A DNA stretch of 64,000 bases from a virus. Below the pieces are notes generated by a model that worked only from the letters and a program-made list of their open reading frames with translations, did no database searches and was not told where the DNA came from. Of the stretch, positions 1 through 64,000 are shown in pieces (within the stretch, counting starts at the first letter, position 1; every line of letters begins with the position of its first letter). A program made the position numbers and the translations under genes. Location of the stretch: positions 240,366 through 304,365 of the IMG/VR virus record IMGVR_UViG_3300031857_000005; one strand, 5' to 3'.

Positions 1-780
1 AAATTCTTTGAAGGATCGCCAATGTCACAAGGTATATTCCAATTTGATATGTGGGGATTGAATGAAAGTGATTTATCAGGATACTGGGATTGGAACCAAC
101 TTAAAGAAGATGTAAAAGAATTTGGGGTATGTAATTCATTATTCACGGCACAAATGCCTGTAGCATCTTCAGCGAAAATTACAGGTTCATTTGAAATGAC
201 AGAACCCGCACATTCAGCATTGTTTAACAGAAGAGTGGTAGGTGGTGAAATTATGATTGTGAATAAATACCTCATTAATGACTTTGAAAAAATGGGTATT
301 TGGTCTGAGGATTTGAAGAATGAAATTATTATCAATGAGGGATCGATTCAAAACATTAACTTTAACAATTATTTAGATACTGAAGATAAACACTACAATA
401 AGAAAGTTAAACGAATTGAGCATTTGATTCCAAAGTATAAAACAATTTGGGAGATTTCACAAAGAGAATTGATTGATATGGCGGCAGACAGAGCACCATT
501 TATTGATCAATCACAATCAATGAATATCTATATGGCGAACCCAACATTGTCAAAGATTACATCATCACATTTCCACTCGTGGGAAAAAGGTTTGAAAACT
601 CTTTGTTATTATGTTAGAACCAAGGCAATTTCCACAGGGGCAAAACACTTGGCGGTTGATATGTCAAAAGTAGAAAAACCAAAAGCAACACCATTTGTTC
701 CCAAAGTGGACTATTCAAACATGAATCTACCACCAAAACCTGAAAATAGTGAATTTGATTGTTTTGGATGTTCATCCTAA
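1..780 (+). CDS. nrdA: Ribonucleoside-diphosphate reductase large subunit, C-terminal part (5' truncated by window)
   Basis: The reading frame is open from base 1, so the ATG at 22 is an internal methionine and the true start lies upstream. The visible 259 residues match the C-terminal part of class I RNR alpha: GIFQFDMW, MPVASSAKITG, the NGSIQ-like NEGSIQ segment, DQSQSMNIYMANP, then GLKTLCYYVRT. The protein ends CFGCSS, the C-terminal Cys-x2-Cys pair that relays electrons from thioredoxin or glutaredoxin to the active site. The sequence resembles eukaryotic/Bacteroidota R1 more than E. coli NrdA. The enzyme makes dNDPs for phage DNA synthesis. A thioredoxin and a glutaredoxin about 55 kb downstream are plausible reductants. 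A terminator follows. Confidence 0.95.
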   Translation, partial: KFFEGSPMSQGIFQFDMWGLNESDLSGYWDWNQLKEDVKEFGVCNSLFTAQMPVASSAKITGSFEMTEPAHSALFNRRVVGGEIMIVNKYLINDFEKMGIWSEDLKNEIIINEGSIQNINFNNYLDTEDKHYNKKVKRIEHLIPKYKTIWEISQRELIDMAADRAPFIDQSQSMNIYMANPTLSKITSSHFHSWEKGLKTLCYYVRTKAISTGAKHLAVDMSKVEKPKATPFVPKVDYSNMNLPPKPENSEFDCFGCSS

Positions 781-785
781 AATAT

Positions 786-811
786 AATCCCGACTTATGT
801 TGGGATTTTTT
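786..811 (+). terminator. Rho-independent terminator after nrdA
   Basis: Stem AATCCCGAC / GTTGGGATT (one G-T pair) with loop TTAT, followed by a T run. It separates the RNR gene from the virion module. Confidence 0.85.
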
Positions 812-835
812 ATTTATATAAAACTTCCCAACATT

Positions 836-843
836 ATATTTAT
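836..843 (+). promoter_or_regulatory. Candidate late promoter motif ATATTTAT before gp25
   Basis: ATATTTAT lies 5 nt before the gp25-like start. A second copy, TATTTATA at 811-818, lies 30 nt before it. The same motif recurs before many virion genes in this window. Assignment as a late promoter is inference. Confidence 0.45.
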
Positions 844-848
844 TAGAT

Positions 849-1307
849 ATGGCAAATGGAGTAACATATGGAATAAATTTCCCCTTTCAAAATTCGTATG
901 TGGGAAAGTATTTAGATTGTTCTGATACAACAGATGAAGAAGTGAGGAGTAATCTTATTCATTTACTTTTAACAAGAAAAGGTACTAGGTATTTTTTACC
1001 TGATTTTGGTACTAGACTATATGAATATATTTTTGAACCATTGGATGGACCTACATTTTCGGAAATAGAATCAGAGATTAGAGATTCGGTATCAACTTAT
1101 ATGCCAGGTTTAACTGTTACTAATGTTAAAATAACAGATGCCTCAATGGAAGAAGAAAATAAAGGAACATACATAAATGGTGAGGATAAAAGAGAATATA
1201 CTGTCTCAAATATATCACAATTAGAACACACGGCAAAAATTAGAATTGATTATAAAACGACTAATACCGCTTTTGAATCAAGTGATTTTGTTATTATTAA
1301 TATTTAA
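849..1307 (+). CDS. 25: Baseplate wedge subunit, gp25-like
   Basis: The 152-aa protein matches the GPW/gp25 family (T4 gp25 is 132 aa). The family core is visible: NLIHLLLTRKGTRYFLPDFGTRLYEYIFEP at residues 34-63, followed by the EIRDSV helix and a short beta-rich tail. This protein forms part of the inner baseplate wedge of contractile tails. It is followed after 6 nt by a gp6-like gene, the same neighbourhood seen in T4-like phages. An insertion of acidic and polar residues near 108-120 makes it slightly longer than T4 gp25. Confidence 0.9.
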   Translation: MANGVTYGINFPFQNSYVGKYLDCSDTTDEEVRSNLIHLLLTRKGTRYFLPDFGTRLYEYIFEPLDGPTFSEIESEIRDSVSTYMPGLTVTNVKITDASMEEENKGTYINGEDKREYTVSNISQLEHTAKIRIDYKTTNTAFESSDFVIINI

Positions 1308-1313
1308 TAGTAT

Positions 1314-3152
1314 ATGGCAAATAAAAAAATATCGTACACAACGAGAGATTTTCAGGGGATAAGAACTGAGTTAATAAATTTTACAAGAACTTATTATCCT
1401 GATTTAGTTCAGAATTTTAATGATGCTGGAATATTTTCGGTAATGTTAGACTTAAATGCCGCAGTAACCGACAACCTACATTTTAATATTGATAGAAGTA
1501 TCCAAGAAACCGTATTACAATACGCACAACAAAAATCATCAATCTATAATATTGCAAGAACTTATGGTTTAAAAATACCTGGGTTGAGACCTTCAGTTGC
1601 ATTGGTTGACTTCTCAATTACAGTTCCTGCGTTTGGGGATAGAGAAGATTTAAGATATTGTGGTATTTTGAGAAGAGGTTCACAAGTTAATGGTGCTGGA
1701 CAACCTTTTGAAACTGTATATGATATTGATTTTGCATCGGCAATTAATGCTGAAGGATCACCAAATAGATTAAAAATACCTAATTTTGATGGTAGTGGTA
1801 AATTAGTTAACTATACAATTGTAAAAAGAGAAGTGGTAGTTAATGGAGTAACAAAAGTATTTAGAAGAGTTGTAACTCCAAATGATGTTAAACCATTCTT
1901 TGAACTTTTCTTACCTGAAAAAAATGTATTGGGAATCACAAGTGTATTATTAAAAGATGGTACACAATATTCTACGGTACCAAGTCCACAGGAGTTTTTA
2001 GGTTTAGAAAATAGATGGTATGAAGTACCTGCTTTAGTTGAGAATAGAGTGTTTATTGAAGACCCTACAAAGGTATCTGATCAACCAGGAGTTAAAGTCG
2101 GTAAATACATAACCACAGATAATAAATTAATTACTGAATATACACCTGAAGGGTTTATGAAATTAACTTTTGGTGGTGGTAATGTTTCTGCAGACGAACA
2201 ATTAAGAGATTTTGCAAGAAATGGATATCAATTAGATTTAAGTAAATATATTAATAATTTAGCTTTGGGTGCGGCTTTAAAATCTAACTCAACACTATTC
2301 ATACAATATAGAGTCGGTGGTGGACAAGGAACGAATTTAGGTGTTAATATTATAAATCAAATAGGTACCGTTTCATTTTATGTGAATGGACCGTCACAAT
2401 CCGTAAATACTACTGTTATTAATTCATTATCATGTAATAATGTTACTGCGGCAATTGGAGGGGCAAATGCTCCATCAACAGAAGAAGTTAGACAATATGT
2501 GACATATAATTTTGCCGCACAAAATAGAGCGGTAACTATAAATGATTATGAATCCATTTTAAGAAATATGCCGTCACAATTTGGGGCACCTGGTAAAGTT
2601 GCAATTACGGAAGAAAACAACAAAATTAAAATTAAAATGTTATCTTACGACGCTGAAGGTAAATTAACTGAAGTAATATCAAATACATTAAAAAATAATG
2701 TCGCCAATTACCTTTCTAATTATAGAATGATAAATGACTATATCTCAATTGAAACTGCAAATGTTATTGACTTAAGTGTTAATGTTGATGTAGTATTAGA
2801 TGCGAGTCAAAATCAAGGTGCGGTAGTTACTAAAATAATTGATATTATATCAAACTATTTTAGTCCATTACAAAGACAGATGGGTGAGAATGTTTATGTA
2901 TCCGAAATAAGACGATTAATTCAAAATGAAAATGGGGTTATTAGTATTTCCGATATAAGTTTTATTAATAATGTTGGAGGACAATATTCATCATCACAAA
3001 CATCACAACCTTACTCTGATTCGGCAACTAAAGAGATTGGATTAATTACTGACACTATATTTGCAGAACCAACTCAAATTTACCAAATTAGATATCCAAA
3101 TAAAGATATTAATGTTAGAGTTCTTAATTTAAAAACGGTGAATTTCTCTTGA
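1314..3152 (+). CDS. 6: Baseplate wedge subunit, gp6/baseplate-J-like
   Basis: The 612-aa protein is close in size to T4 gp6 (660 aa). The N-terminus TTRDFQGIRTELINFTRTYYPD and LDLNAAVTDNLHFNIDRSIQE is characteristic of T4-type gp6. The middle carries the baseplate-J-like segment with NRAVTINDYESILRNMP and an ENNKIKIKML strand. This protein dimerises to link adjacent wedges into the baseplate ring. It lies directly behind the gp25-like gene and is presumably co-transcribed with it. The ATG at 1314 is 6 nt after the previous stop. Confidence 0.85.
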   Translation: MANKKISYTTRDFQGIRTELINFTRTYYPDLVQNFNDAGIFSVMLDLNAAVTDNLHFNIDRSIQETVLQYAQQKSSIYNIARTYGLKIPGLRPSVALVDFSITVPAFGDREDLRYCGILRRGSQVNGAGQPFETVYDIDFASAINAEGSPNRLKIPNFDGSGKLVNYTIVKREVVVNGVTKVFRRVVTPNDVKPFFELFLPEKNVLGITSVLLKDGTQYSTVPSPQEFLGLENRWYEVPALVENRVFIEDPTKVSDQPGVKVGKYITTDNKLITEYTPEGFMKLTFGGGNVSADEQLRDFARNGYQLDLSKYINNLALGAALKSNSTLFIQYRVGGGQGTNLGVNIINQIGTVSFYVNGPSQSVNTTVINSLSCNNVTAAIGGANAPSTEEVRQYVTYNFAAQNRAVTINDYESILRNMPSQFGAPGKVAITEENNKIKIKMLSYDAEGKLTEVISNTLKNNVANYLSNYRMINDYISIETANVIDLSVNVDVVLDASQNQGAVVTKIIDIISNYFSPLQRQMGENVYVSEIRRLIQNENGVISISDISFINNVGGQYSSSQTSQPYSDSATKEIGLITDTIFAEPTQIYQIRYPNKDINVRVLNLKTVNFS

Positions 3153-3202
3153 TGATTTATTTTTAGAATAAAAGAATTATTTTTTGAAAATAGGAAATAA
3201 AC

Positions 3203-3209
3203 TATTTAT
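3203..3209 (+). promoter_or_regulatory. Candidate late promoter motif TATTTAT
   Basis: TATTTAT lies 15 nt before the start at 3225, in the 72-nt AT-rich gap after the gp6-like gene. It belongs to the recurring late-type motif of this window. Confidence 0.4.
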
Positions 3210-3224
3210 CAAAAAAAGAATTTA

Positions 3225-6200
3225 ATGCCAAAATCATATAGAATTAGAACCGAGCCAGGTGTAGATAAATCCATAAAAATACAATTAGATCAGGATTTTG
3301 AATACTTGGAGATTTTATCTTTGAAGATATTTCAAAATGATATATACACTCGTATGTGTTCTGATTACGGTGTTGTTGTAGGTAGAGTATTAGTTAACGG
3401 AGGTTTTGGGGTACCAAACGCTAAAGTATCGGTGTTCATCCCAATAACTGACGAAGATGAACAAAACCCAATTATTTCTCAATTATATCCATATAAAAAC
3501 ATTGATGATTTAAATGACGATGGTTATAGATATAATTTATTACCTTATGAACCTTCATATCAAGGACATTCAGCAACAGGTACATTTCCAAGTAGAGAGG
3601 ATGTTTTAACCGATGCAGCATTAGTTGAGGTATACGACAAATATTATAAGTTTACTGTAAAAACAAATGAAAGTGGTGACTATATGATATTTGGGGTACC
3701 AACTGGAGAACAAACAATATTTATGGATGTTGATTTATCCGATATTGGGTGTTTCTCATTATCACCACAAGATTTAATTAACTCAGGATTAGCAACAGAA
3801 ACTCAAGTTGATGGGAACAAGTTCAAAACTTCAACCAACTTACGAGAATTACCACAAGTTAAAACATTAAATAAAATAGTTCAAGTACAACCATTATGGG
3901 GTGAACCTGAAATTTGTTTATTGGGTATCACAAGAGTTGATTTTGATTTAACGGCATCTGCTAATGTAAACATACAACCGACTTCTGTGTTTATGGGTTC
4001 AATGTTCTCAACAACAAATGAGGATGCGGTTAAGAAAAGTTGTAAACCAAAGATTAACACAGGAAATATGTGTGAACTAATTGCGGGTCCTGGACAAATA
4101 TTGGCAATTAGACAAACAATTAATACTGATGATAATGGATATCCTGTTCTTGAACAATATAGATTAGAACAGGATGGTAAGATAATTGATGGTGAGGGTA
4201 CTTGGTTGGTTAATTTACCAATGAATTTGGATTATGTAACAACAAATGAATTTGGTGAACAGGTATTATCTAACGATCCAAAAGTGGGAATACCAACCAC
4301 TTCAAAGTACAGATTTAAAATTAAGTGGCAAAACGAAGAGGGTTTGCAAAATAACTTTATGAGAGGTAACTATTTGGTACCTAATATTAAAGAACACGGA
4401 TGGAATAGTACTGATGAGAATAATGATCCATTTAAAAATTCTGATACATATACAAGTGAATATCAAGCGTCAATACCTGTTGGATCAACATCATTGTCTG
4501 TTGGACCAATACCTAGAGGGGGGTTCTTTCTTAATAGTGTGGTAAATACACAACAATTAACAATTGAAGTAAACGGAGTTCCATATTATGGTAGTTTGGA
4601 TAGTGTACCATTACCCAATGTCAACAATATAATTACATTTAATGCAATACCAATAGATAATACACAACCTATTGATATTGTGTTCACAATATATGACGAA
4701 CCACTATTTAACCTATTAAGATCTTACGCATTCAGTTTAGATTGGGATGATTATTATGATACTCAAGCGGCAATTGATTGTGAGGATAGTTTTTATAAAT
4801 TTCATTACAATAAAGTTTATACCGTAAGTTCATTTATTGATAGGTATAAAAATGGTAGCAATAGAGCCAGACATCTTGGGATTAAAGAAATTACAAATAG
4901 AACTTGTCAGAGTGAAAATAACAAATTACCTGTTAATGATTTAGTTAGGAATTTTGACTTCATATTCTTCTTATTCACTTTGTTACTTGCAATAGTATCA
5001 CCAATGATTGTTATTATAATAGTTGTAAATCACGTATTGGCATTAATATATCCAATAATAGTTGCAATAGCTAACTTTGTTATAAAATTAGTTAATGGTA
5101 TTGTTTATAACATATGTAAAATTGTTAAAAATTTAGGAGGTAATGTTGAATGTAAAAAAGAAACATTAGAACCAATGAGTGAAGATAACCCATTCAAAAG
5201 GTTATCATTACCAATGATGACATATCCTGATTGTGAGGCTTGTTCTTGTCCTGATGAGAGTTTGGTAACATCAAGTTCTGTTGCGGGTTCTTGGAATGCC
5301 GCGGCGTTAGGTATTAATATATCAATATTAAGTGATTTAGGTACTTTAGGTAGTTATAGTACTTGGACATTGAATCCCACAAACAATCCTTGCGGATTAA
5401 CCTTTTCCTCAACTCCGGACCAAACGGCTTGGGATCAAGGTTCTCAACAATTATTTGCTGGGGCAGTTAATCCCGCTAGAGTTTATTATAAAGTACCAAT
5501 ATGGGAGGAATTAGGTCCTGATGGTGCTAGTGCTAATTCGGGACAATTGTTTAAAAGATTTGGTGATGGTATGACATTGGCTCAATCAATGAACATGGCT
5601 AATCTTAGATCGAGATACTTTGATATTACCGCTAGAAACAGAATCACAGTAACACCAAACCCAACATTGGTTGGTACAACAACTTTAGGTGTTGGTGGTA
5701 ATTCATATCAAGATTTATCAATGATAATGTTAGCGGATCAGGGCACAATTAGTCAGTTAGTGGGTAAAGTAATTTCTTTTACTAATCCGGTGAATACTAA
5801 TGACTTTAATGTTACAGGTGGTACCGAAAATCAATTTGGGGGAAATGCAATAACAGGGACTACATTAGGGGTTGGCACATATACAGTACCTTTAACTTAT
5901 ATGAATGACTTAGGTGTTAATATAACATCAGATATAACTGTTGTTGGTACTGAAAGTGAAAAGGAATATTTATATAAATCAGGTATAGAGTATTTCCAAG
6001 TAGTTGCCGGATATACATGGGATGAACTTGTATCCACAGGTCCATTACAACCACAAGGTACCTATGTTGGATCAACAGTAACTAATTCAGGAGTGTTGTG
6101 GAAGTACTTCTTTCAAAATAAAATAAGCTATTTAAATCCAACGGCAAGTTCTCACACACCACCTTGGTTTTGGTTTAATGATTATCAACAACAAGAAATT

Positions 6201-58757: not shown

Positions 58758-60266
58758 ATGAAAAAAGTAATTAGACTTACCGAATCAGATTTAATTAAAA
58801 TAATTAAAACTAAACTCAACGAAGAAGAATCTGAATTTATTGAAATTCCCGCAAATGAATATGAACAGTTATTATCTGTAACTGGATATAATGGTGCGGC
58901 TCTTGAAAAGACAAGAAGGTTTAGAGGTAAGAAAATAAAAGTAAACGGTAGGTTAGATATATCAGGTAAACCAGTTACAAATCTTGGAACAATATATCTA
59001 CAAGGATCATTAGAGGCAACTAGATCAAAGTTAGAAACTTTAAATGGTGTGACAATTACGGGGTCTAAATGGTACTATAATACACCATTGGAGTCTAAAG
59101 AAAAGATAAGGAAACGAAGAAAAGAATTGGATGATGCCCAAGAAAGAAGAGAAAATGGTGTGTGGGACTTAGATTATCCGAACATTGATGATGAGGGATT
59201 AAAAGCAAATGCTGCGTTTCAGTACCTTGTTGAAAATGGTGAGATAGAAGAAATAACATCAGAAGAAAAAAGAGAATTAAAAAATTTAGAACAAAGACAA
59301 CTTAATATTTCTGATAGAATGGAAGCGGAAAATGATGAGGAACTTTTATCTGAATTGCAAAGTGAATACGATGAATTACAAGAAGACATTGATGATTTAT
59401 TAAGAAAGGAAAATAATGATGTTTATGGATTGATACCCAAAAGTTTTGGACATTATAATATGTTATCTTTTATGACAACATATGATGATTTTAATGATGT
59501 GACAATTGCCGTTGGAACCGAATATGAAGCGGATGAATCAAAAAAAGAATGGGTTGAACAATTATTGGATGATGGAGGATATAGACACTTTAATCAATAT
59601 ACGGTTGAAAGACATATTGATGGTGATGAGGTTGCCGACTATTTTGAAGATGTTATTAGAGAATGGATATATGATGATCCTGATAATTATGACGTTGTAA
59701 AAGATTTAAGTAGAAGTCAAAAAGATGAACTTTGGGTTCTTAAAATGGAGAAATGGGTTTATGAAAATGAAGGAGTCAGGTTTCCAATAAAGTACCCAAC
59801 AAAAGAAGAAAATGGAACTGTATTTGATTTTTGGGATGAAGATGAAGAACACGAATTTCAATTAAAATATGAAGGAAATAAGTGGGTATTATATAAAGAC
59901 GGATCGATAGTTCAACCAGGTCAACTATATGATGATGAAGACACTGACGATCACCAAGATGATCGTGAAAGTAGAATTTCTGATATTGAATATGAAATAC
60001 AAGAAATTGAAGAAAATCCTGATGGTGATTTGGATGAAGATTCGGTTGAAGAAAGGGTTGAAGATAAAAAATACGAAATTTCTAATGACCCTATAAGTTG
60101 GTTGAGAAATTACGACATGGATGTTGATAATTTTATTGATGAAAAGGCATTTATTGAAGATGTTGCTGGTGATGAGGATTATGGTATTTTGAATGGTTAC
60201 GACTCAACATATGATATTATTAATTTGGGTAACCAAAGTTATGTTGTAATGATAACCGATAAATAA
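58758..60266 (+). CDS. Large acidic capsid-cargo candidate with RLTESDL leader (502 aa)
   Basis: The leader MKKVIRLTESDLIKIIKTKL ends LNE|EE, a T4-type prohead-protease site; RLTESDL leaders of this kind are familiar to me from many marine phage proteins. Two segments that follow are an N-terminal beta domain (NGRLDISGKPVTNLGTIYL, about 60-100) and a long acidic helical coil region (about 110-220). The rest is acidic, with FDFWDEDEEHEF and DDEDTDDHQDD runs. The acid content and the leader suggest a packaged, possibly injected protein. No catalytic motif seen. Confidence 0.55.
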   Translation: MKKVIRLTESDLIKIIKTKLNEEESEFIEIPANEYEQLLSVTGYNGAALEKTRRFRGKKIKVNGRLDISGKPVTNLGTIYLQGSLEATRSKLETLNGVTITGSKWYYNTPLESKEKIRKRRKELDDAQERRENGVWDLDYPNIDDEGLKANAAFQYLVENGEIEEITSEEKRELKNLEQRQLNISDRMEAENDEELLSELQSEYDELQEDIDDLLRKENNDVYGLIPKSFGHYNMLSFMTTYDDFNDVTIAVGTEYEADESKKEWVEQLLDDGGYRHFNQYTVERHIDGDEVADYFEDVIREWIYDDPDNYDVVKDLSRSQKDELWVLKMEKWVYENEGVRFPIKYPTKEENGTVFDFWDEDEEHEFQLKYEGNKWVLYKDGSIVQPGQLYDDEDTDDHQDDRESRISDIEYEIQEIEENPDGDLDEDSVEERVEDKKYEISNDPISWLRNYDMDVDNFIDEKAFIEDVAGDEDYGILNGYDSTYDIINLGNQSYVVMITDK

Positions 60267-60302: not shown

Positions 60303-61094
60303 ATGGCAAGAAAAAAGAAAAATAAAGGAATTGAATTTATAATGGAAACAGATTGGTTATTTGAAAAACCAATTGATCAAGAACACAAAGAATATAAATT
60401 ATTAAGTTACTTCCAAAAAATGGGAGAGAAACTTGATAATATGGAACTATATCCTGGTTTCATAGAGTTGTCATTGCATTTGGCAAGTATTCAAACCCTA
60501 ATTAAAGATAAAAAATTAATTTATACTGATAAGAAGTTTGATACGATTGATGATGAACTCCTTGTTAAGGATTTGAAAATCAAACAAATTCCTGACATGA
60601 CACAGGAAGAAACTCAAGAGTTTATTAGTATATTAAAATTTTCCGCACCAAGACTAATGGAGTACTTCAATGTTGCAAAGTCCGTGTGGTCAGTCGTGTT
60701 TGAAACAATTGAAGTTAAAATTAAAAAGAACAAAAAAAATCTATCGTTAAACAAAGGATACTTTTACTACAATGAGAATAAAACAAATAGTTTATATGTT
60801 TGGGAGTACAACATAACACCAGCATCAAGAGGTTCCATTGAGAAAAAAACACTTGTAAATTTAATTCATTCCGAACCAAAAGATAAGTTGACTATACCAA
60901 AAATAATTAATACATTTTCTCAATGGAGTTCTGATGAAGAAAAACCATCATTACCTGTGTTTGAAATGAAATGTAGTGATATATTCCCAATCAATGAAAC
61001 ATTACTACCATTATTCAAAAGAAAACTGATTTCATATATTAATCAAGAAATGTATGGGAAAGAAAAAAAAGTGATACAAATTAAAGTTAAGTAA
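60303..61094 (+). CDS. Hypothetical protein (263 aa)
   Basis: Basic, with a Lys-rich start (ARKKKNKGIEFIMETDWLFEKP), mixed alpha/beta. TTTA-N19-TATACTTG at 60267-60297 is a weak host-type promoter candidate. The protein resembles conserved marine phage proteins of unknown function. No motif recognised. Confidence 0.6.
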   Translation: MARKKKNKGIEFIMETDWLFEKPIDQEHKEYKLLSYFQKMGEKLDNMELYPGFIELSLHLASIQTLIKDKKLIYTDKKFDTIDDELLVKDLKIKQIPDMTQEETQEFISILKFSAPRLMEYFNVAKSVWSVVFETIEVKIKKNKKNLSLNKGYFYYNENKTNSLYVWEYNITPASRGSIEKKTLVNLIHSEPKDKLTIPKIINTFSQWSSDEEKPSLPVFEMKCSDIFPINETLLPLFKRKLISYINQEMYGKEKKVIQIKVK

Positions 61095-61095
61095 T

Positions 61096-61236
61096 ATGGA
61101 TATAATAGAAATTTTTGAAAAGTTGGTTAAGGAAAATCCAAACGATAGTGATTTGGGTAAAAAAGTTAGAGAAATGTATCACAAATTAAAGAGTGAAAAT
61201 AATGGGATTCAACAAGAGGATACTCAGAAAAGATAA
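61096..61236 (+). CDS. Small hypothetical protein (46 aa)
   Basis: ATG 1 nt after the previous stop; 46 residues beginning MDIIEIFEKLVKENPNDSDL. The ENPND motif recalls the 54558 protein. It overlaps the next gene by 35 nt. Moderate support. Confidence 0.45.
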   Translation: MDIIEIFEKLVKENPNDSDLGKKVREMYHKLKSENNGIQQEDTQKR

Positions 61237-61384
61237 TATTATTAATAATCTTGATAACCTATCAAGATATCTATCAGCCGATGCAATTATTATTAGTGAC
61301 GACTTTTCAAATGAAGTGTTCAAAATGTTCTGCGAAGGAAAAACTGAGGATGAAATCATAAAATATATAAATAAAAACAAATGA
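61202..61384 (+). CDS. Small hypothetical protein (60 aa)
   Basis: I start it at 61202 (MGFNKRILRKDNIINNLDN). Helical, with ADAIIISDDFSNEVFKMF and a C-terminal Asn/Lys run. Its stop overlaps the glutamine synthetase start as ATGA. Unknown function. Confidence 0.5.
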   Translation: MGFNKRILRKDNIINNLDNLSRYLSADAIIISDDFSNEVFKMFCEGKTEDEIIKYINKNK

Positions 61385-62580
61385 AGATTAAACTTGAATA
61401 TCTGTGGTTAGACGGATATATGCCGGAACCAAATTTAAGAAGTAAGGTAAAAATTGTTAATTACGATGACATAAAAAATTCATTTATAACGGGTAGATTT
61501 CCTGAATGGAACTTTGACGGATCATCAACAAACCAAGCAGAAACTGGGACTTCAGACTGTATTTTAAAACCTGTAAGACATTATTTGGATGATAAATTTG
61601 GTAGTGTGTATGTTCTTTGTGAGGTTATGAATTCAGACGGAACACCACATCAATCAAATACCAGATCATTACTTGGTAATGAACAAGAGGATTTGTGGTT
61701 TGGTTTTGAACAAGAATACTTTATCTATGATAGAAAAAATAAATGTATTTTAGGCCACGATGAAAACAACTTGGAACCACAAGGTAAATATTATTGTGGT
61801 GTTGGAGAATATGTTGCGGGTAGAGAATTTGTTGAAGAACATATGAATTTATGTTTAAGGTATGGGATTAACATAACAGGAATAAATGCCGAGGTTGCAC
61901 TTGGACAATGGGAGTATCAAGTATTCTCTCAAGGTAAATTGAAATCAGGAGATGATTTATGGATGTCTAGATACCTATTACATAAGTTGTCCGAAAAATA
62001 TAATTATGGGATTGAACTACACCCAAAACCAATCCAAAAAGGTGAATGGAATGGATCTGGACTTCACACAAACTTCTCAAATTATAAAATGAGGGAAGAA
62101 GGTGGTGAAAATCATTTTAAATCAATTTTCTCAAGTTTTGCCACAAGACACCAAGAACATATTGAAAATTATGGTTCATCAAATGAATTAAGATTGACGG
62201 GTAAATTTGAAACCCAATCAATTAATAAGTTTAGTTGGGGTATTTCAGATAGAGGTGCATCAATTAGAGTTCCACAATCAACCGCAAAAGAATGGAAGGG
62301 ATATGTTGAAGATAGACGACCATCATCTAATGCTGATCCATATAAAATCATTTATCAAATATGTGAATCATTAAGAAACGCTGAAGAGATTGACGACATC
62401 AAACATAAAATGAATTATAAACTTGATATGGACAACCTTAAGATGGATTATAAAACAATCCCAACCGATGAACTATTAAAAGAATACTTCAATGATGAAG
62501 AATTTGAATTGGATGGTAAAACAATGGATGGAAGTAATATCCCTACAAAAGAAATTAAATTTGATTTAAATGGAAAATAA
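61381..62580 (+). CDS. Glutamine synthetase, type II (GSII)
   Basis: The 399-aa protein has the GSII motifs in order: WNFDGSST (about 43-49), the active-site Glu region GFEQEYF, NAEVALGQWEYQV (about 168), the WNGSGLHTNFS segment (about 222), and LRLTGKFE, FSWGISDRGASIRVP and EDRRPSSNADPY (about 270-315). GSII (eukaryotic and Bacteroidota type) has no adenylylation site. It converts glutamate and ammonia to glutamine. In a phage genome it would be an auxiliary metabolic gene for nitrogen and nucleotide supply. It overlaps the fused methyltransferase downstream. It would act as a dodecamer or decamer in the cytoplasm. Confidence 0.93.
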   Translation: MKIKLEYLWLDGYMPEPNLRSKVKIVNYDDIKNSFITGRFPEWNFDGSSTNQAETGTSDCILKPVRHYLDDKFGSVYVLCEVMNSDGTPHQSNTRSLLGNEQEDLWFGFEQEYFIYDRKNKCILGHDENNLEPQGKYYCGVGEYVAGREFVEEHMNLCLRYGINITGINAEVALGQWEYQVFSQGKLKSGDDLWMSRYLLHKLSEKYNYGIELHPKPIQKGEWNGSGLHTNFSNYKMREEGGENHFKSIFSSFATRHQEHIENYGSSNELRLTGKFETQSINKFSWGISDRGASIRVPQSTAKEWKGYVEDRRPSSNADPYKIIYQICESLRNAEEIDDIKHKMNYKLDMDNLKMDYKTIPTDELLKEYFNDEEFELDGKTMDGSNIPTKEIKFDLNGK

Positions 62581-63409
62581 TATATTTAACAAATTACCCG
62601 GAATGATGTTTGGTAAGGGTGAGGGTAACATTAGTTGGTACCCAGAAAGGATTCATACCCTACAAGATTTGGTATACCAAATTAAACCAAGAAATATTAT
62701 TGAAATAGGATTCAATGAAGGACATTCAATGGTTTTAATATGTGAGACATTATTGAAAATAATTAATGAAGATCCTGATTTTAATAGGAAACCAATAATT
62801 GTTTTTGTATTTGATGACTGTAAATATGAGAGTACTGTTAACAATCACTCAATACTTGCCAAGCATTACAGGAAGTGGAACATACATTTGAGTTTATTTC
62901 CTGGTAACTCCCTTGAGGTTGTTCCAAGAGTTTTAGACACATCAAAAACAAAATTTGATTTTATTGAGATTGATGGGTGCCACTTTGAGGAATGCGTTAG
63001 AGGTGATATTAATAATGTGATTAATTTTATTAATGATGATGGTATTGTATATTTGGATGATTATAAGTCCTCAAAAGATCCTACTGAAGGTGTTAATAAT
63101 GTAATTGAATCATTTGACTGGCAAGGATTTAATACCTATCATATTGATGGAGTATTTTGGGCTCACAAAAAGAAAAAAGAAATGGAAGAAAAAAAGGAAC
63201 AAGTAAATCACCCTAACCACTATGGGGGAGAGTCAAACCCATATGAAGCAATCAAGGTGATTGATGCTTGGGACTTAGGATTCTCCCTTGGTAATACTGT
63301 GAAGTATATCTCAAGAGCGGGTAAGAAAGAGTTAGATAAAGAATTACAGGATCTTAAAAAAGCATTGTGGTATTTGCAACACCACATTGAAACATTGGAG
63401 AAAAAATGA
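62570..63409 (+). CDS. SAM-dependent methyltransferase fused to DUF3310 (279 aa)
   Basis: The N-terminal half is a class I methyltransferase fold with IIEIGFNEGHSM at about 43-54, a VFDDCKY strand and IEIDGCHFEE (about 134-143), then VYLDDY. The C-terminal 75 residues are DUF3310, beginning NHPNHYGGES and carrying the NTVKYISRAGKKELDKEL segment, a domain normally separate in T4-like phages. ATG 62570 overlaps the glutamine synthetase stop by 11 nt. The frame is continuous, so it is one fusion protein. The substrate and the role of DUF3310 are unknown. An internal Met near residue 205 could also make the DUF3310 part alone. Confidence 0.75.
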   Translation: MENNIFNKLPGMMFGKGEGNISWYPERIHTLQDLVYQIKPRNIIEIGFNEGHSMVLICETLLKIINEDPDFNRKPIIVFVFDDCKYESTVNNHSILAKHYRKWNIHLSLFPGNSLEVVPRVLDTSKTKFDFIEIDGCHFEECVRGDINNVINFINDDGIVYLDDYKSSKDPTEGVNNVIESFDWQGFNTYHIDGVFWAHKKKKEMEEKKEQVNHPNHYGGESNPYEAIKVIDAWDLGFSLGNTVKYISRAGKKELDKELQDLKKALWYLQHHIETLEKK

Positions 63410-64000
63410 TAGAAACAGGAAAAATAATAACAGGAGATTGTATTGAGGTGATGAAAACATTACCTGAAGGGTCTGTGGATTTAATCGTCACATCACCACC
63501 CTACGGAGTCGGGATTGCGTATGATACCCACGATGATGATGTGGAGTTTGAGGAGTATTTGGTATTTGCCAAAAATTGGTTAACTGAAGCATATAATGTT
63601 TTGAAAGATGATGGACGAATCGCGTTGAATATTCCATATGAAATCAATAGACAAAAGAAAGGGGGAAGAATTTTCTTTGTTTCTGAAATGTATCAATTAA
63701 TGAAACAAATTGGGTTTGGTTTCTTCGGTATCGTGGATTTAGAAGAAGATTCACCTCATCGTAGTAAAACAACTGCTTGGGGATCTTGGATGAGTCCGTC
63801 AAGTCCGTATATTTATAATCCAAAGGAGTGTGTAATACTTGCATACAAAAAACACCACATTAAAAAGGTTAAGGGAGAACCTCAGTGGAAAGGGACACCT
63901 ACTGAAATTGAACAGGAGGATGGAACCATAAAAAAGAAAGTTGTATATGAAGAACAAGATAAGAAGGAGTTTATGGAACTTGTTTTTGGTCAGTGGAATT
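63406..64000 (+). CDS. DNA methyltransferase, 3' part outside the window (198 residues visible)
   Basis: The frame runs from the ATG at 63406 (ATGA overlap with the fusion gene) to the end of the window without a stop. The motif VTSPPYGVGIAY (residues about 25-35) is the catalytic site of an N6A/N4C methyltransferase. It is similar in plan to the 38702 enzyme (TSPPYDN), with different flanks. Further motifs presumably lie downstream. Confidence 0.8.
   Translation, partial: MIETGKIITGDCIEVMKTLPEGSVDLIVTSPPYGVGIAYDTHDDDVEFEEYLVFAKNWLTEAYNVLKDDGRIALNIPYEINRQKKGGRIFFVSEMYQLMKQIGFGFFGIVDLEEDSPHRSKTTAWGSWMSPSSPYIYNPKECVILAYKKHHIKKVKGEPQWKGTPTEIEQEDGTIKKKVVYEEQDKKEFMELVFGQWN

Follow-up and report, generated by a model that had tools for sequence, protein, structure and literature searches.

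The window analysed here, the final 64 kb of the 304,365-bp IMG/VR record IMGVR_UViG_3300031857_000005, carries an intact and complete gene for a type II glutamine synthetase (GSII), as judged from its sequence, within a run of phage genes. We consider it likely (probability roughly 0.85) that this gene encodes a working enzyme, expressed from the phage's own operon, that would raise the glutamine supply of the infected cell for nucleotide and amino-sugar synthesis. The gene and its neighbours (window coordinates) are:

58758..60266, + strand: 502-aa protein with N-terminal tag MKKVIRLTESDL..., kept upstream of GS in 61 of 81 loci
60303..61094, + strand: 263-aa protein, conserved directly upstream of GS in 72 of 81 loci
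61096..61236, + strand: tiny ORF of 46 aa between the 263-aa and 60-aa genes, with a similar small ORF in the corresponding position of loci L079-L081
61202..61384, + strand: conserved 60-aa orphan protein, whose stop codon shares an overlap of 4 nt (ATGA) with the start of GS
61381..62580, + strand: GSII, 399 aa, with ATG start and no internal stop, assigned on domains, structure matches and active site
62570..63409, + strand: fusion of a SAM-dependent methyltransferase (Methyltransf_24) with DUF3310, found in 50 of 81 loci
63406..64000, + strand: DNA N6/N4 methylase, cut by the record end, kept downstream of GS in 62 of 81 loci

The 399-aa chain comprises a catalytic core (residues ~1-335), followed by a C-terminal tail specific to the phage lineage (~336-399). 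N-terminal beta-grasp and C-terminal catalytic domains are present, both Pfam domains (Gln-synt_N and Gln-synt_C) pass their cut-offs, and GSII is a nearer match to the protein than GSI or GSIII. The NCBIfam GlnII profile matched over positions 1-327 of 333 (E=1.8e-99, 333 bits), with the other NCBIfam models far behind (GlnA, 2e-15; type III model, 2.1e-10). The GlnII equivalog cut-off of 500 bits, a naming threshold and no defining feature of the class, was missed by the window protein and reached by none of the 20 viral records checked; the score weakens strict equivalog status and leaves the GSII class unaffected. GSII structures in the PDB matched at 1e-70 to 1e-89, including those of yeast (3fky, 3e-89), Streptomyces (4bax, 2e-84) and maize (2d3a, 3e-77), and the remaining GS chains at ~1e-8 or weaker. 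The window protein resembles these three enzymes in both GS domains, in all catalytic residues and over ~335 aa, and differs from cellular GSII in having ~60 additional C-terminal residues; the best cellular copies are 50-58% identical to it. A structure model predicted from 22 sequences, of low confidence (pLDDT 61) and used as a fold check only, returned GS chains for all of the best 50 Foldseek matches listed, with GSII structures from Streptomyces, maize and yeast at the top.

For the active site we used a list of maize GS residues, which we take to be D56, E129, E131, E192, E199, G245, H249, R291, E297, R311, R316, E330 and R332. All 13 mapped positions are identical in the window protein, as they are in 214 aligned viral copies (window included) and in 80 cellular copies, and the alignment to maize GS places residues of the metal, ammonium, glutamate and nucleotide sites in the window protein. 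The sequence-only reading, which had described a complete GSII with the usual motifs, is thereby borne out by profiles, PDB matches and active site alike, and its concern that catalytic residues might prove missing on alignment is answered by the 13 positions found.

Start and stop codons overlap along the gene run, the 60-aa gene with GS (4 nt) and the GS stop with the start of the methyltransferase-DUF3310 gene. About 80 other viral contigs, retrieved with the GS protein as query, share the gene order: 502-aa protein, 263-aa protein, 60-aa protein, GS, methyltransferase or sugar genes, DNA methylase. The sequence-only placement of GSII in a phage gene run is thus confirmed by an overlapping operon whose order is widely kept. 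A simple pattern search directly upstream of GS found no Bacteroidota-type promoter, which is consistent with an operon, and an Rfam search of the 50-64 kb region gave no match. Between the window GSII and other phage copies dN/dS is 0.09-0.20, and the gene is under purifying selection. In other loci the methyltransferase-DUF3310 gene is replaced or joined by sugar-nucleotide genes; in relatives L010-L042 the interval between GS and the DNA methylase is a swap site, in which genes for a sugar-nucleotide dehydratase, a DegT-like aminotransferase and a hexapeptide acyltransferase vary.

GS-fold enzymes of other classes use other amines. A drift of the phage GSII to another gamma-glutamyl ligase reaction, for example with an amine in place of ammonia and with DNA, sugars or peptides being modified, would be in keeping with the Methyltransf_24 and DNA methylase genes next to GS, and for the sugar-nucleotide dehydratase, DegT-type aminotransferase fragment and hexapeptide acyltransferase-like protein encoded beside it in relatives. 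We regard this as improbable: the aspartate of the ammonium site, the arginines of the glutamate site and the glutamate of the flap do not vary among the aligned copies, GlnII is the best family match and scores far above the gamma-glutamylputrescine synthetase model, and between relatives the sugar genes come and go while GS persists.

Relatives of the enzyme are widespread among viruses. A scan of IMG/VR proteins with the window GS found at least 583 stretches encoding relatives, and queries with GSII of huge phages found 51 and 321 stretches, two sets that may overlap. A phylogeny of GSII, proposed as a check in the sequence-only reading, placed the window copy in a purely viral clade with support of 100/100 (maximum likelihood, 86 rows, bootstrap not fully settled). 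Its nearest relatives in the tree, L222, L215/L217 and L220, are all on viral contigs, of which L215 retains the 263-aa gene and the DNA methylase around GS and L222 the downstream methylase. The next branch out (99/93) is SAR86-like gammaproteobacterial GSII, the nearest cellular branch; one member, L103, is flanked by genes that on inspection are clearly chromosomal, a glycyl-tRNA synthetase gene among them. A second phage clade (C, 100/100) unites huge phages of 642 kb (LR756502) and 635 kb (LR745206), and GSII of a 735-kb phage (LR756501) lies on a different branch from clade C. The cellular rows of the tree are nearest hits, so it settles neither the direction of transfer nor the number of acquisitions.

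Like the window phage, the huge phages LR756501/LR756503 (735 kb), LR756502 (642 kb) and LR745206 (635 kb) have an intact GSII, 44-54% identical to the window copy; the loci L176, L177 and L178 represent the intact gene at the three genome sizes of 735, 642 and 635 kb, respectively. In its main text, the paper that described huge phages in 2020 (PMC7162821) does not use the word 'glutamine'. The window GSII is a long-kept phage gene, inherited within a viral clade. On this evidence phage GS has been maintained in two or more separate viral clades and is no one-off captured gene, and its occurrence in these clades and in phages of 635, 642 and 735 kb makes nitrogen assimilation a recurrent target of large phages.

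The same data bear on whether the GSII gene is host DNA, be it bacterial sequence joined into a chimeric contig or a gene acquired recently from a host. The ends of the record are composite, cellular GSII reaches 58% identity to the window copy, and at least one other viral-labelled contig, L211, has a GS gene that shares ~93% identity with one of Flavobacterium, so that some other GS contigs labelled viral may be bacterial. At the window locus, however, the flanking phage genes are common to ~80 viral contigs, the GSII clade is purely viral, and overlapping start and stop codons tie GS to phage genes. We give an origin from host DNA almost no credence, and contamination at the GS locus is refuted by the conserved synteny. 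The worry about a chimera, raised from the sequence alone, holds for the record ends, which come from different strains, but not for the GS locus, whose gene order is kept in the ~80 other contigs.

A second GS gene (401 aa) lies at record position 650-1855. Record positions 1-3269 and the final 3267 bases (window 60734-64000) align over their whole length at 80.5% identity, and this overlap of the ends is why the record holds two GS copies. GS occurs once in contigs L005-L007. This copy shares 99-100% identity with the record start and is joined without a break to a stretch that has 82% identity to the upstream flank in the window; along L006, identity to the record start is 98.9% as far as ~3.6 kb and falls to 80% past 4.8 kb. 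The record is therefore composite, both ends being the same locus from two strains, which makes the GS copies orthologues, not paralogues. Two intact GS genes in one record could also be read as a dose-doubling tandem duplication, with one paralogue at each record end, but we hold this to be very improbable given the end-to-end alignment, the single continuous copy in L005-L007 and the presence of exactly one GS in each of the 20 viral records checked (13-476 kb). On these three observations we reject the duplication.

The gene directly upstream of GSII is itself a conserved feature. Its ORF could be extended upstream to 61193; the conserved start is the ATG at 61202 (MGFNKR). In 60 of 81 loci the gene was detected ahead of GS, a count in which the window copy (L004) is masked by an overlapping antisense ORF, and with a dN/dS of 0.03-0.20 it is under purifying selection. 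The predicted structure of the 60-aa protein is a small alpha/beta fold of high confidence (pLDDT 90), for which comparison with Pfam, PHROG and PDB folds gave no convincing match; a weak resemblance to a CcmH helix (best E 0.0014) was not accepted. The protein may be a partner of GSII, a guess from gene order, and the conserved small gene thus offers a concrete, testable candidate. A more far-reaching proposal would make GSII a viral enzyme family of long standing that evolves separately and has its own dedicated, co-translated 60-aa protein to bind or regulate it, so that the phage could control nitrogen assimilation without depending on host regulation; we put this forward tentatively and think it rather unlikely.

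The record is that of a T4-type aquatic jumbo phage. It encodes a T4-type terminase, portal, tail sheath, baseplate wedge (gp6), UvsW-type helicase and ClpA-type protease, together with a family B DNA polymerase (PolB), a sigma factor, DnaJ, Hsp20 and the large subunit of ribonucleotide reductase; a search for the beta-subunit family of phage RNA polymerase found none in the record. The terminase (TerL) and baseplate proteins are nearest to those of the annotated Flavobacterium phage immuto and of the unannotated huge phage LR756508 (25-29% identity), and the portal is nearest to that of Microcystis phage Mel-JY01, followed by immuto and LR756508. Judged from these distant phage relatives only, the host probably belongs to the Bacteroidota. 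GSII in general escapes adenylylation control, as the sequence-only reading had pointed out. This statement stands for GSII as a class and is probably irrelevant here: GlnE was found in none of 18 Bacteroidota/Balneolota genomes tested, with E. coli, Caulobacter and Corynebacterium as positive controls, so, with such a host, escape from adenylylation is unlikely to be the advantage.

The sequence-only reading had also supposed a phage GS to be rare or undescribed, which does not agree with the published record or with the at least 583 IMG/VR stretches encoding relatives. The 25 moraphages are aquatic jumbo phages with genomes of 200-307 kb and, for the most part, predicted Bacteroidota hosts; 9 of these phages carry GS as an auxiliary gene (Perez-Hernandez et al., 2025; PMC12619734). 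Phage GS is further reported from other jumbo phages (PMC13037316), as an auxiliary gene of SAR86 virus(es) under the Ross Ice Shelf (PMC10721903), and in additional phages or viruses (PMC9083009, citing Cassman 2012; PMC11944383; PMC12542629); the class of GS is not given in the accessible portions of these reports. The SAR86-virus gene, likened here by description, is likewise a phage auxiliary gene, with a different host and phage; SAR86-like GSII is also the cellular branch nearest to the window clade in our tree.

In the traits described in PMC12619734, our record resembles the moraphages: its 304,365 bp lie within 200-307 kb, and it has TerL, portal, sheath and baseplate gp6, PolB, a sigma factor, a ClpA-type protease, a UvsW-type helicase and DnaJ/Hsp20, and lacks phage RNA polymerase (beta-subunit family searched). 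It is probably from the same phage lineage, a likeness drawn from shared traits and not from sequence alignment. For the moraphage GS the same portions of the report state no class, phylogeny, operon or active-site check, which are given here. What is added to the known phage GS is thus its class, ancestry, operon and an assembly artefact; new are the assignment to class II, the inheritance within a viral clade, the occurrence in one or more further, separate phage clades and in the huge phages of 635, 642 and 735 kb, and the conserved 60-aa orphan gene overlapping the GS start.

In the reading we favour, a T4-related aquatic jumbo phage would express GSII from its own operon during infection, and the enzyme, to go by its sequence, would convert glutamate, NH4+ and ATP to glutamine, of which the infected cell would then have more. 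Purines, CTP and amino sugars take their nitrogen from glutamine, and in this way GSII could support the synthesis of phage DNA, RNA and glycans. The gene for the large subunit of ribonucleotide reductase makes a high nucleotide demand plausible. A search of the record for two glutamine amidotransferase families (PF00117 and PF13522) found neither domain, and the consumers of glutamine may therefore all be the host's. The presence of GS in only 9 of the 25 moraphages (PMC12619734) suggests that it is useful yet dispensable.

Two further features of the phage were observed. At record positions ~153400-170465 lies a long run of genes resembling glycosyltransferase and FkbM-type genes, together with GDP-mannose dehydratase and epimerase genes, these two checked by family search. 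Recurring N-terminal tags (MKKVIRLTESDLTRIVxRVI, MKIIITE, MKELIRHILKEE and MNLQENIRRILRE) are found on at least 43 of 357 predicted proteins, for example at window 58758-60266 and at L003 13969-14653, and could be capsid-targeting or other sorting signals.
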